Source: Halarcobacter sp.
Lineage (GTDB): Bacteria > Campylobacterota > Campylobacteria > Campylobacterales > Arcobacteraceae
Reading direction: 5' to 3'
Assembly (NCBI RefSeq): GCF_963676935.1
Contig: NZ_OY781470.1
Span: 372,001 to 436,000, forward strand
DNA: 64,000 nt
Made by a program: the position numbers and the translations under genes. The notes below the pieces were generated by a model that worked only from the letters and a program-made list of their open reading frames with translations, was not told where the DNA came from and did no database searches. Of this stretch, positions 36,929-41,727 are shown one piece after another (the stretch's first letter is position 1; each line of letters begins with the position of its first letter).

Positions 36929-37684
36929 TTAAACTGCCTTTGTTTCTATTTTATATCCCATTTTAGAGTGACTGCTTATTAAGTTTTTATTAACTTTTTG
37001 TCTTAATCTAAATAAAACTCCTCTTAATGCACCTTCTCCAACCAATTCTCCATCATATAAAAAATCTTCAATAGCCTCATTTGCAACAATACAATTTTCA
37101 TTTTTTATTAGGATTTCAAAAAGTTTTATCTCTTTTTGATTTAGATTTATCTCTTTATCTTCTAAAAACAATTTTCTCAAATCTTTATCAAAAATATAAC
37201 CAAACTTTAGTGTTTTAAATCTTTTCTGTGAATTTTCACTATTCTCTTTTATTTTTTCAAGTGCTACATAATGTTTTTTACTATCTTCAAGTTTTATAGT
37301 TAATTCTTTTTTATCTGAAAATTTTTTTAAGGCTAATTCTACTGTTGCTTTTAATTCTGCATCTTTAAAAGGTTTAATTATATATCCATAAGGTTCATTT
37401 TTAATTGCTCGCTCAATTGTTGTATATTTATCATTTGCTGTTAAAAAAACAAAAGGTATATCATATCTTTTTATAATCTCTTCACTTAGTGAAATCCCAT
37501 CATCACCGTTTTTTAAAGTAATATCTAAAAGGGCTAAATCACAGCTGTTTTCTTCCAACAGTTTTAAAGCTTTTTTTATATTTGTTGCAACTCCAATAAC
37601 ATTGAATCCAAACTCTAAAAGGGCTTCTTTTATATCCATTGCAGTTACTATTTCATCTTCAACAACTAATATATTTTTTTTCAT
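36929..37684 (-). CDS. Response regulator, receiver plus winged helix (paralogue)
   Basis: A 251-residue regulator with receiver residues E9-D10, phospho-acceptor D54 (LALLDITLKNG) and K104 (IIKPF). A linker of about 30 charged residues precedes a winged-helix part (LNQKEIKLFEILIKNENCIVAN, GALRGVLFRLRQKV). The start codon overlaps the stop of the kinase gene (TAATG), so it is the coupled partner of that kinase. It is similar in sequence and layout to the regulator at 35433-36128. Its 3' end reaches the pseudogene island. Confidence 0.9.
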   Translation of the reverse strand: MKKNILVVEDEIVTAMDIKEALLEFGFNVIGVATNIKKALKLLEENSCDLALLDITLKNGDDGISLSEEIIKRYDIPFVFLTANDKYTTIERAIKNEPYGYIIKPFKDAELKATVELALKKFSDKKELTIKLEDSKKHYVALEKIKENSENSQKRFKTLKFGYIFDKDLRKLFLEDKEINLNQKEIKLFEILIKNENCIVANEAIEDFLYDGELVGEGALRGVLFRLRQKVNKNLISSHSKMGYKIETKAV

Positions 37685-38964
37685 TAATCCTCTTCTTCTG
37701 ATATTTCATATGAAATGCTACATGAAAGTCCATTTTCATTTATAATTTCTAATTCACCATTAAGTTGAAATTCGACAATTGACTCTATAAGTTGCCAACC
37801 TAAAGAGTTATTATTTTTTAATTTTTGTATATTATATCCAATACCATTATCTTTTACCCCAAATAAAATTTGCTTATTATTTTGATAGATAAAAATATCA
37901 ATATTACCATTGTTCCTATCTTTAAATGCATGTTTAATACTATTTAAAAGTAGTTCATGAATCACTAATGCTACAAGTACTGAATTATTTATAGATAAGT
38001 TAATATTCTCTTTCACAGATATATTTATATTTAAAGTATTTTTTAAATTATAAATATCTTTAATAGCAAAAGTTAGTTTTTCTAAATATTGTTTCATATT
38101 TATAAATCTTAAATCATTATCTTGGTAGATTATTTCATGAACAAGTGCAATTGCATAAATTCTACTTCTTGTTTTATCTAATTGAGTATTAATTACATCA
38201 TTTTTTTCTCTTCTTTTTTGCATAGAAAGTAAAGATGATAAAACTTGTAAATTGTTTTTAACTCTATGATGAATCTCTTTTATTAAAATCTCTTTTTCCT
38301 CTAAAGAACTTTTTATTATTTGTTCTTTTTTCTTTTGTTCTGTAATATCCCTTGCAAAAGCACAAATAAACTCTTCTTCCCCATTTGCAGAAAAATAATT
38401 TGCAGCTATTAAACAAGGAAATGATTTCCCATCTTTTGTTGTTAGTTCTGATTCAAAGTAGTTAAATTGCTTTTTCTTTTGTATAATAATTTTTTCAACT
38501 TCATGGAATTTTTTATCAATTTTTATGATATGCTCATTTAGTAACTCTTCTTTTGTATATCCCAAAACTTTACATAATCTATTATTTACATATACAATTT
38601 TCCCATCAAATTTAAACCAATAGATAGCATCTGCTGTATTATCAAGTACAAAATTAATAAGTTTAAGATTTTCACTCTCTTTTTTTTGAAAAAGTATTAA
38701 CTTCTCTTTTGCCTCTTTTTCTATTTTTGCAATACTTCTTAAAAAGAAATATAAAAAAACACTTGTAACAATAAAAAAAGTTATTCCTATAAATAAAGGT
38801 AGTTTTGTATCCTGATTATTATCTGTATGTTGAATAATAAACATTGAAACTTTATTTACAAGAACAATTCCAATAATTCCAATAATTAAAAATGTAAATG
38901 AGTATAGTTTAGCTTTTTTTTCGTTAGGTATCTTCGCAATTACTTTTAAAATGTCATTAAACAT
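37684..38964 (-). CDS. Membrane PAS-containing sensor histidine kinase (HisKA_2 type)
   Basis: A 426-residue kinase with two N-terminal membrane segments (about 17-37 and 48-70) joined by a short loop, so it has little periplasmic sensor. A PAS domain (about 100-215, NTADAIYWFKFDGKIVYVNNRL) is followed by HisKA_2 with KEIHHRVKNNLQVLSSLLSMQ and an ATPase domain with HELLLNSIKHAF and GVKDNGIGYN. ATG 38964 is chosen because a GAGGA site lies five bases upstream; the frame is open slightly further. It sits in one operon with the regulator at 36929. Confidence 0.9.
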   Translation of the reverse strand: MFNDILKVIAKIPNEKKAKLYSFTFLIIGIIGIVLVNKVSMFIIQHTDNNQDTKLPLFIGITFFIVTSVFLYFFLRSIAKIEKEAKEKLILFQKKESENLKLINFVLDNTADAIYWFKFDGKIVYVNNRLCKVLGYTKEELLNEHIIKIDKKFHEVEKIIIQKKKQFNYFESELTTKDGKSFPCLIAANYFSANGEEEFICAFARDITEQKKKEQIIKSSLEEKEILIKEIHHRVKNNLQVLSSLLSMQKRREKNDVINTQLDKTRSRIYAIALVHEIIYQDNDLRFINMKQYLEKLTFAIKDIYNLKNTLNINISVKENINLSINNSVLVALVIHELLLNSIKHAFKDRNNGNIDIFIYQNNKQILFGVKDNGIGYNIQKLKNNNSLGWQLIESIVEFQLNGELEIINENGLSCSISYEISEEED

Positions 38965-39097
38965 TGTTTCCTCAATATTATTATTCCAGAAAATCATTAT
39001 ATACTTTTTTTATTTAGATACTAAAAAAACATATGAGATTTTTTTGAGATTTTTTTTATCTACAATTCTTTTAAGATAAGTATGAAAGGAGAAAAAA

Positions 39098-39706
39098 ATG
39101 GAAAGATTTTCTAGACGCTCTTTTTTAAAAAGTACAAGTTTAGGAGCAACTATTTTGGCATCAGGTGCCTATGGTAACCCTTTATCTAGTCTAATTTTGT
39201 CAGATAAAAAACAAAACAATATTAATTTAGACTATGTTATTTTTGATAAAGGCATAGAAAAAAGTGAAGAGTTCGCAAAAAAAATGAAAGCTTTGGGAAC
39301 TAAAATATATGAAGTAAATAAAGATATTTCTCAAATGTGGAGTGAGATAATCAGTCCAACATGGGGTAAAAATAAAAATACAGCTATTGCAGGATTAACT
39401 TCTTATGAAACAATGTTTGTATTAGAAAGACTTGCCTTTGATAAAGGTATGTTAATGTATTTCAATGCAGAACATAATATAGCTAATAGTAATATTAGCC
39501 ATAAATTACAAGCATCAAAAGTTGAACTTGAAAGAATCAAAAAAAATCTAGATAAATATGATTGGACAGATGCTTTAGCTTTAAAAATCAATAATTATGA
39601 GTATGAAAGAATTGATTCTAAAACTAAAATATCTACAATCAATAATAAAAATGAAAAAAATCAAATATTATATTCTTGGATTATTGCTCCAAGAAAAGTT
39701 AGTTAA
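39098..39706 (+). CDS. Tat-signal protein of unknown function, leader of the flavocytochrome operon
   Basis: A 202-residue protein with a twin-arginine signal (R6-R7 in FSRRSFLKS, then a hydrophobic stretch to about residue 25). The mature part, with IFDKGIEKSEEFAKKMKALG and GLTSYETMFVLERLAFDKGM, matches no cofactor-binding fold I know and has no cysteines. It ends 11 bases before the flavoprotein gene. That flavoprotein has no export signal of its own, although its cytochrome partner is periplasmic. One idea is that this protein carries or stabilises the flavoprotein during Tat export. Confidence 0.75.
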   Translation: MERFSRRSFLKSTSLGATILASGAYGNPLSSLILSDKKQNNINLDYVIFDKGIEKSEEFAKKMKALGTKIYEVNKDISQMWSEIISPTWGKNKNTAIAGLTSYETMFVLERLAFDKGMLMYFNAEHNIANSNISHKLQASKVELERIKKNLDKYDWTDALALKINNYEYERIDSKTKISTINNKNEKNQILYSWIIAPRKVS

Positions 39707-39717
39707 AGGAGATTTGT

Positions 39718-41364
39718 ATGTCTAAAAATGAAGAGATAATATTACCAAATGGTGTTAGCCAAGAGGATTTTTTACAAGCAGTAAAAGAGCTTGAAAAAGT
39801 TACAGGTAAACAATGGGTTTTTAAAACTAAAGATGATTTGCACTTATATCGAGATGCTTATTCTCCATATTGGGATGAACCAGAAGAGCCTATTCCCTCT
39901 TTAGCAATTGCACCAAAAGAAGTTGATGAGGTACAAGAAATTGTAAAAATTGCAAATAAGTATGGATTACCACTTTTCCCTATCTCTACAGGTAAAAATC
40001 TAGGTTATGGATCTTCTGCCCCAAACAACAGAGGTGATGTAGTAGTTGATTTAAAAAGAATGAATAAAATTATTGAAGTAAATGATAAAAGAAACTACTG
40101 TATTTTAGAGCCAGGTGTATCATATTTTGACCTTTATGAATATTGTGAAAAAAACAATTTAAATGTAATGATGGATATGCCAGATCCAGGTTGGGGAAGT
40201 CCTGTTGGAAATTCACTTGACCATGGCTGGGGTTATATGCATGGACAATATAGAGACCACTTTGGTGCACACTGTGGGATGGAAGTTGTTTTAGCAAATG
40301 GTGAACTGATGAGAACTGGTATGGGAGCACTTCCTGGAGCAAAAACTTTTGCAGAAAACAAATACGGTTATGGACCATATGTTGATGGTCTTTTCTCTCA
40401 ATCAAATTTTGGGATTGTAACAAAAATGGGATTTTGGATGATGCCAAAACCTGAGCATTATTCATTAGCTGTGTTAACAGTTCCAAGAAGAGATGATTTA
40501 ATTCCTTTAGTTGAAATTATGAACTATTTAGAAGATTCATCAATTATTGGTTGGCCTTTATATAGGAGTCCGTTAAATCCTGAATATGGAAAACCAATGA
40601 ATCCTGAGTTAAAATCATATTTAACATCAAAAAATGGGAAACCAGATATTGATAAGATTCAAGATTATGCACTTAGAAATAAAATTCCATACTGGAAAAT
40701 AGATATTCCTTTATATGGAAATAAAGAAGCTGTAGAAGCAAATATTAGATATATAAGAGATAGATTCTCAAGTGCAATTGAAGGTGCAAAAGTTGAAGTT
40801 GAAGAAAATTATTCTTTACCTTTATCTGATGAGCAAAAAAAAGCTGTTAAACATAAAGTTACACTTGGTATTCCAAACCTTGAAATTTTTTGGTTAAGTA
40901 CTAGAGGTGAAAATTTTGGACCAAAAGATGGTCATGTATGGTTTTCTCCTATTATTCCAAGGGATGGGGCAGAGTTATTAAAATGCCAAGAGATTTATAT
41001 TGATACTTTCCATGAGTTAGGAATGGAATCTATGATTACACCATTTTCACACCCAAGAACATGGATGTATAGAGCATTTTGTTTTATGATTGGATTTGCT
41101 AATTCAAGGGAAGATAAAGAGAAAAATGCACAAATGAGAAAAGTCTATAATACTATGGTTAAAGTTGCAGCAAAGCATGGATGGGGAGATTATAGAGCAG
41201 CACCACCTTTCCAAGATGCAGTATCTAGTGTTTACAGTTTTAATAATAATATATTAAAAAGATTTGCAGAAGAGTTAAAAGATACTATTGATCCAAATGG
41301 AATATTAGCTCCGGGTAGAGGGGGAATTTGGCCTAAGAGATTAAGAGGAGATAAAAATGCTTAA
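39718..41364 (+). CDS. p-Cresol methylhydroxylase-like flavoprotein subunit
   Basis: A 548-residue FAD enzyme of the vanillyl-alcohol-oxidase/PCMH family. The FAD-binding part has LFPISTGKNLGYGSSAPNNR and VVVDLKRMNKI. The C-terminal part has HVWFSPIIPRDGAEL, DYRAAPPFQDAVSS and the end DPNGILAPGRGGIWP, which match 4-cresol dehydrogenase and eugenol hydroxylase. These enzymes oxidise para-alkyl phenols with water and pass electrons to a c-type cytochrome. The cytochrome gene follows with an 8-base overlap, which strongly supports this assignment. The exact phenol is unknown. No signal peptide is seen. Confidence 0.87.
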   Translation: MSKNEEIILPNGVSQEDFLQAVKELEKVTGKQWVFKTKDDLHLYRDAYSPYWDEPEEPIPSLAIAPKEVDEVQEIVKIANKYGLPLFPISTGKNLGYGSSAPNNRGDVVVDLKRMNKIIEVNDKRNYCILEPGVSYFDLYEYCEKNNLNVMMDMPDPGWGSPVGNSLDHGWGYMHGQYRDHFGAHCGMEVVLANGELMRTGMGALPGAKTFAENKYGYGPYVDGLFSQSNFGIVTKMGFWMMPKPEHYSLAVLTVPRRDDLIPLVEIMNYLEDSSIIGWPLYRSPLNPEYGKPMNPELKSYLTSKNGKPDIDKIQDYALRNKIPYWKIDIPLYGNKEAVEANIRYIRDRFSSAIEGAKVEVEENYSLPLSDEQKKAVKHKVTLGIPNLEIFWLSTRGENFGPKDGHVWFSPIIPRDGAELLKCQEIYIDTFHELGMESMITPFSHPRTWMYRAFCFMIGFANSREDKEKNAQMRKVYNTMVKVAAKHGWGDYRAAPPFQDAVSSVYSFNNNILKRFAEELKDTIDPNGILAPGRGGIWPKRLRGDKNA

Positions 41365-41692
41365 AAATATGAAGATTTTATTATTAACAGCTGTTTTAGC
41401 AAGTTCATTATTTGCAAATGATTCTTCAAAATTTAAAGAAGGGAAACAAGTATTTGATAAATGGTGTGTTCATTGTCACGGCATAGGTATGCCTGCAACT
41501 AATGCCTTAGGGATTGTATATAAAGATACAGGTATCTCCCCTGTCTTAGCGCAAAGAAAAAATTTAGATGCAGGGTTTGTAGATTATGTAGTTAGAAATG
41601 GAAGATTTAGTATGCCATTTTTTAGAAAAACTGAAATTAATGATAAACAATTAGAAAGTTTATCTTTTTATCTTTCTACAAAAAATAAATAA
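41357..41692 (+). CDS. Class I cytochrome c, electron acceptor of the flavoprotein
   Basis: A 111-residue periplasmic cytochrome. A signal peptide runs to about residue 20 (ending SLFA). The haem motif is C37-V-H-C40-H41, and Met86 in RFSMPFF is the likely sixth ligand. The size and layout match the PchC subunit of p-cresol methylhydroxylase. Its start lies inside the flavoprotein gene after a GGAG site, so the two subunits are co-translated, presumably to keep a fixed ratio. Confidence 0.9.
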   Translation: MLKNMKILLLTAVLASSLFANDSSKFKEGKQVFDKWCVHCHGIGMPATNALGIVYKDTGISPVLAQRKNLDAGFVDYVVRNGRFSMPFFRKTEINDKQLESLSFYLSTKNK

Positions 41693-41696
41693 AATA

Positions 41697-41727
41697 GTAA
41701 CTTCTCAAAAGATATTTGAGAAGTTAC
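41697..41727 (+). terminator. Hairpin ending the flavocytochrome operon
   Basis: A 13-bp perfect stem (GTAACTTCTCAAA and its complement) with a 5-base loop lies four bases after the cytochrome stop. No T-run follows directly, so termination strength is uncertain. Confidence 0.55.

Follow-up and report, generated by a model that had tools for sequence, protein, structure and literature searches.

A twin-arginine signal protein as candidate Tat carrier of VAO/PCMH-type flavoproteins, encoded in a flavocytochrome operon of Halarcobacter sp.

The window analyzed here is a stretch of 64,000 nucleotides from the closed 3.1-Mb genome of Halarcobacter sp. (contig NZ_OY781470.1, positions 372,001 to 436,000), and the subject of this report is a tight operon of three plus-strand genes within it (39098-41692). 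These encode, in order, a small protein with a twin-arginine translocation (Tat) signal, hereafter the partner, a flavoprotein (FP) and a c-type cytochrome (Table 1). The three open reading frames (ORFs) lie where the initial annotation had placed them, with 11 bases (39707-39717) between the partner stop and the FP start, a spacing that it had also given correctly, and with an 8-base overlap (41357-41364) between the FP and cytochrome genes.

Table 1 Features of the flavocytochrome operon and its surroundings in the window
Feature	Position	Strand	Basis
Partner with Tat signal (202 aa), proposed FP carrier	39098-39706	+	ORF; twin arginine invariant in 26 homologues; adjoins FP in every systematic scan match
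Twin-arginine codons (R6, R7) of the partner signal	39113-39118	+	Sequence; invariant in alignment A1
VAO/PCMH-type FAD flavoprotein (FP), 548 aa, without export signal	39718-41364	+	ORF; Pfam; relatives of solved structure
His406 codon of FP, predicted covalent FAD link	40933-40935	+	Aligned with His of 8s7p (GGGGHVGFSP)
Periplasmic monohaem cytochrome c, 111 aa	41357-41692	+	ORF; Pfam; CVHCH at residues 37-41
CVHCH haem-binding motif of the cytochrome	41465-41479	+	Sequence
Perfect 13-bp hairpin directly 3' of the operon, likely transcript end	41697-41727	+	Folding -16 kcal/mol, z -5.2
TGAG tandem repeats spaced by 11 bp, between the operon and the divergent kinase gene; possible binding site of a response regulator	39034-39055	+	Conserved in five family genomes
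Divergent PAS/HisKA_2 sensor kinase	37684-38997	-	Pfam; homologue upstream in family and Sulfuricurvum-type loci
Response regulator, winged-helix output	36929-37684	-	Pfam; homologue at loci L019 and L087

FP contains the FAD-binding domain of the p-cresol methylhydroxylase (PCMH) type (Pfam FAD_binding_4, 1.4e-27). Among relatives of solved structure the closest, at 566 bits, is 9h40, named 'p-cresol methylhydroxylase'; eugenol-oxidase-type entries (EUGO), PCMH 1dii (309 bits) and vanillyl-alcohol oxidase (VAO) come next, all as full-length phmmer matches. By its FAD domain and its full-length similarity to solved members FP thus belongs to the VAO/PCMH flavoprotein family, the same family as the p-cresol methylhydroxylase of Pseudomonas putida (PchC/PchF), where the flavoprotein likewise has an adjacent cytochrome. 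His406, the predicted site of covalent FAD attachment, lies within the motif DGHVWFSP; the aligned VAO-type histidine of 8s7p is the residue that binds FAD covalently. PCMH 1dii, in contrast, has GGGGSMWFAP where FP has this VAO/eugenol-oxidase-like histidine, and FP is nearer to 9h40. The enzyme domain starts at once behind the N-terminus (MSKNEEIILPNG), which holds no signal, as the initial annotation had noted, and no hydrophobic segment (MSKNEEIILPNGVS). The cytochrome (Pfam Cytochrome_CBB3, 1.8e-10) has the hydrophobic leader and CVHCH motif of a periplasmic protein, again in line with that annotation. With a c-type cytochrome encoded next to it, FP has the setting of a PCMH-like flavocytochrome, and the two proteins would be expected to form such a complex.

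The partner starts with MERFSRRSFLKS, followed by a hydrophobic stretch. In an alignment of 26 partner relatives (A1), R6, R7 and D76 are invariant, D50 and W194 almost invariant; the C-terminus resembles SWIxAP. The twin arginine with its hydrophobic stretch, kept in all 26, marks a Tat signal; the Pfam model TAT_signal (PF10518) matches 9 of the 26 members at E<=0.01, and the window protein is sub-threshold (13.6 bits vs. 22.7). Beyond the Tat signal no Pfam or NCBIfam model fits the family of the window protein and its 26 homologues, which agrees with the earlier remark that the protein has no recognisable cofactor site. Two weak Pfam matches, SpoU_sub_bind (E 0.049) and DUF3896 (0.067), fell below the cut-off and were dropped. 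The redox enzyme maturation chaperones of the TorD/NapD type are cytoplasmic proteins without a signal of their own, and no partner match to their families was found in Pfam or NCBIfam.

With the single 202-residue sequence as query, nothing was found outside close relatives in the genome contigs, and nothing better than E 0.2 in the PDB. An AlphaFold2 model built from 20 sequences (mean pLDDT 81, above 90 across about residues 41-130) predicts an alpha/beta, Rossmann-like domain behind a poorly predicted linker. The best structural match of this model, to a designed Rossmann protein, has Z 6.5 and rmsd 3.4 over 98 residues; as the fold comparisons turned up Rossmann-like matches of a generic kind only (best E 0.015 in Foldseek), no homology is claimed from them. 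The partners of Campylobacter and Helicobacter are shortened (124-144 aa; L022, L023, L025-L027, L032), the middle of the domain being gone and the signal and C-terminal strand kept.

The partners that accompany PCMH-like FPs (A5) or other sphingomonad FPs (A6) have diverged strongly in sequence, yet profile comparison aligns them with A1, at a probability of 97% (127 columns) and 99% (167 columns), respectively; these alignments include the signal peptide, so that their E-values are flattered. The FP of Massilia is a closer PCMH relative (592 bits to the solved P. putida PCMH 1dii), and its partner gene stands between those for cytochrome and FP. An unassigned gene of P. putida, pchX, presumably occupies the equivalent position, between pchC and pchF.

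Among 104 genomes of the window's family the partner occurs in five and an intact FP in the same five; the remaining, sixth FP match, L015, is fragmentary and adjoins a transposase fragment. Because the three-gene arrangement is kept in all five family genomes with an intact FP and far beyond the family, it is not a product of chance. For the wider scans each genome was searched in full, with models built from FP-linked proteins, which could miss distant relatives that are not linked to an FP. In the Campylobacterota scan (298 genomes) the model from A1 found matches in 44 at E<=0.001. Of these, 27 were discarded for matching nothing but the first 72 model positions (E 8e-5 or weaker, mostly the signal peptides of larger Tat proteins); the remaining 17 (E<=1.8e-16) all stand beside an FP. 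FP itself was found in 23 Campylobacterota genomes, 17 of them with a core partner match. Four genomes (G161, G286, G300 and G374) encode a divergent twin-arginine protein between cytochrome and FP, the contig of G346 ends inside the partner with a readable C-terminal part (..KLYSFILAPKDMQ..), and G015 has an FP remnant with a transposase alongside.

Betaproteobacteria (321 genomes) contain 14 FP places in seven genomes, 12 of them with an adjacent partner, and in the reverse search all nine partner matches adjoin an FP. The 20 partner matches in Sphingomonadales (296 genomes searched, 15 with matches) all have an FP within 1.5 kb. Summed over the three scans, 46 of 46 core partner matches lie beside an FP, a co-occurrence that holds genome-wide. 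The initial annotation had proposed a piggy-back export partner or an assembly factor, and had named as its refutation a partner found mostly away from such operons; this refutation was tested and failed, and the proposal is well supported by the comparative evidence.

Within a named genome collection, whose FP relatives include a Campylobacter coli isolate and several Helicobacter, the partner lies beside FP at 19 of 22 FP loci; at L021 the C-terminal part of a partner is seen at the contig edge, L031 starts inside FP and is unreadable in this respect, and L033 has none. Plasmids gave 34 records with FP, of which 23 were examined, amounting to 24 FP places; the other 11 are seven Roseomonas records, with query coverage and identity as in the examined one, and H14, H15, H19 and H22. 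A partner is present at 17 of the 24 places, two FPs have their own Tat signal and no partner, four have neither partner nor adjacent cytochrome (two in Rhodococcus, one in Corynebacterium and one in Rhizobium leguminosarum, the last with glcF as neighbour), and one FP is cut by an insertion sequence.

Some of these loci deserve mention in their own right. Plasmid pF1 of Sphingobium yanoikuyae SJTF8 (L169) carries the FP-cytochrome-Tat partner module twice, in divergent copies, and resembles the published bpf (bisphenol F) cluster; its Tat partner gene is annotated merely as a hypothetical protein. At L085, L086, L015 and L024 (Helicobacter, Campylobacter and family genomes) FP is damaged (split, interrupted, or truncated next to a transposase), and the partner is intact at L085, L086 and L024. 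The FP of one metagenome-assembled genome (MAG; L042, 1002-2570) has two in-frame stops where its relatives have other residues, and is either a pseudogene or an assembly error.

Five of the six possible gene orders occur: partner-FP-cytochrome (the window, L016, L028), cytochrome-partner-FP (L019, L087-L090, L101, L104), FP-partner-cytochrome (L029), FP-cytochrome-partner (L094, L097, L106, L128, L135) and partner-cytochrome-FP (L102, L168). That the linkage persists while the order changes argues for a functional tie. On the Novosphingobium ES2-1 and THN1 plasmids FP directly follows the cytochrome gene, begins with MSDLNLDRRGLLGAGIIGAASLGLG.. or a near copy and thereby carries its own Tat signal (..DRRGLLGAGIIGAASLGLG..); no partner is present in the 6.5 and 7.5 kb read around these FP genes. 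An apparent twin arginine on FP at L041 and L105 was disregarded as a spurious upstream extension of the ORF.

Much of this pattern could also be produced by a periplasmic assembly factor that is exported alone by Tat and aids the joining of FP and cytochrome, or the covalent attachment of FAD, with FP reaching the periplasm by another route. Such a factor would leave the same co-occurrence, and would suit a protein with no cofactor site, an alpha/beta fold and R6, R7 and D76 as sole invariants. We nevertheless think it unlikely, as it leaves the export of a signal-less folded FP unexplained, and as a factor of this kind should still be found at loci whose FP carries a Tat signal itself and keeps its cytochrome. 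What tips the balance from a pure assembly factor to piggy-back export is that the two FPs with their own Tat signal show no nearby partner, with the reservation that ES2-1 and THN1 are close relatives in the FP gene and may count as one event. The partner might instead be linked to FP through a shared pathway only, handling a phenolic substrate or product in the periplasm, and the generic alpha/beta fold does resemble parts of periplasmic binding proteins at a low score (Z 5.0). This suggestion merits next to no credence, given the short Helicobacter and Campylobacter partners without the middle of the domain, the confinement of invariance to the same three residues, and the absence of the partner where FP has its own signal.

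PCMH and 4-ethylphenol methylenehydroxylase are described in PMC11302072 as periplasmic although without a signal. The window FP, lacking a signal of its own, is in this respect a cargo as found in hitchhiker pairs, and TatC is present in the genome. A folded FAD protein cannot pass through Sec, and cytochromes c travel unfolded and obtain their haem after export. For these reasons, and because the gene layout equals that of the FAD glucose dehydrogenase (GDH) of Burkholderia cepacia and Tat is at hand, we hold the partner to be the Tat carrier of FP, and put the probability that it exports the folded, FAD-loaded FP as a piggy-back (hitchhiker-type) carrier at roughly 0.75. The signal-less FP would fold and take up FAD in the cytoplasm and there bind the small partner, whose twin-arginine signal would take the folded complex through Tat. 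The cytochrome would cross separately, unfolded, via Sec and receive its haem in the periplasm, where FP would meet it to form the flavocytochrome; the carrier may be released after export. The binding of FP to the partner, the dependence on Tat and the release are putative steps. In our literature search no publication was found in which a Tat carrier is attributed to the PCMH/VAO enzyme family; subscription literature was mostly outside this search, and absence in print is not claimed.

A different route was supposed by the authors of the work on the bisphenol F enzyme BpfAB, who (PMC12724174, 2025) let the cytochrome signal peptide guide the export of the flavoprotein. Against an export of FP with its cytochrome in this way, the similar clusters of S. 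yanoikuyae SJTF8 do have a Tat partner gene beside the cytochrome, the set of three genes occurring twice. Cytochromes c are moreover unfolded in transit and would be unable to drag a folded FAD protein with them, which makes this route very improbable. The partner could also travel with FP and stay in the flavocytochrome for good as a stabilising third subunit, in the manner of the GDH gamma subunit, which stays bound in the crystal structure reported in PMC6719666. PCMH, however, is described as a two-component (cytochrome and flavoprotein) alpha2beta2 enzyme in PMC12724174 and PMC13416013, and we regard a third subunit as distinctly improbable.

Several observations weigh against the partner as a dedicated Tat carrier. 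Its core is weakly conserved, with 17-38% identity outside close relatives in A1. Two Betaproteobacterial FPs (L126, L127) are without a partner of their own, lying about 9 kb from an FP-partner pair in the same region, and in seven further genomes, with 22 FP places, 10 of 20 FP loci have no partner within 1.5 kb. Some of the partner-less FPs are near a partnered one (L158 on the same contig as L154, L159 about 5 kb from L152, L161 near L156) and others are on short MAG contigs; one locus, L033/L149, is partner-less with readable flanks. In a Caulobacterales MAG (G388) one partner gene (L136) is an orphan, 7 kb of sequence showing no FP, and an FP located elsewhere (L160) is without a partner; these are possibly the two halves of a split pair. 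In view of these exceptions to strict pairing, several FPs may share one partner, or the route may not apply to some FPs.

The use of para-alkyl phenols or related aromatic compounds by a member of the Campylobacterota, which the initial annotation had read from the operon as an unusual trait, stands in part: the trait is not unique (FP in 23 of the 298 sampled species), and growth on these compounds as a carbon source is not indicated, because no intradiol ring-cleavage dioxygenase is encoded in the genome, the search for ring-cleavage routes having covered PF00775 alone. Use of these compounds as electron donors, or their detoxification, is likelier. A kinase homologue lies upstream in all five family genomes with the operon and at the Sulfuricurvum-type loci L019, L088, L089 and L090, homologues of both kinase and regulator occupy the same position in Sulfuricurvum kujiense and relatives, and both TGAG half-sites with their 11-bp spacing are conserved in the five family genomes. 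This suggests, but does not prove, that the kinase/response regulator pair controls the operon. The trait is being lost in places, some of the host-associated genomes and MAGs (G203, G315, L024) having a split or interrupted FP.

If true, a carrier would explain how PCMH-type enzymes reach the periplasm, a long-standing puzzle as set out in PMC11302072. A dedicated Tat carrier is a testable answer for enzymes acting on lignin-type phenols and bisphenol F; it would guide the heterologous expression of PCMH-type enzymes and add one more family to the few known hitchhiker carriers. The FP trait is scattered over the Campylobacterota, gut species included. A wider proposal would join three claims: that the partners form a new and widespread family of VAO/PCMH Tat carriers, from Campylobacter and Helicobacter to pseudomonads and sphingomonads and including the classical p-cresol enzyme; that the carrier holds the cytochrome-binding face of the FAD-loaded FP until displaced by the mature cytochrome, being both export ticket and assembly checkpoint; and that gut Campylobacterota respire p-cresol, a product of gut fermentation, as an electron donor. 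We offer this combination tentatively, and doubt that it holds as a whole.

Among known carrier systems, Escherichia coli PaoABC resembles the arrangement proposed here in that the signal on one partner takes signal-less partners through Tat, as described in PMC4273604. The PaoABC proteins are unrelated to those of the window operon. The signal-bearing PaoA is, we assume, part of the PaoABC enzyme itself. A direct precedent is the gamma subunit (hitchhiker) of B. cepacia GDH, without which, as described in PMC6719666, the FAD subunit is not properly folded and secreted. Like the window partner, GDH gamma is small, has a Tat signal and is encoded together with an FAD enzyme and a cytochrome subunit of the c type. 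No Pfam match to its family, gluconate 2-dehydrogenase subunit 3, was found for the window protein at E<=1 or for the 26 homologues at E<=0.01, and GDH gamma is not among the structure matches listed for the partner model, which in itself proves nothing. GDH gamma is reported (PMC6719666) to consist of five alpha-helices, whereas the window partner is predicted to be alpha/beta, a comparison by description and not by superposition; the cargo of GDH gamma is of the GMC family, and that of the window partner of the VAO/PCMH family. The partner and GDH gamma look like independent solutions.

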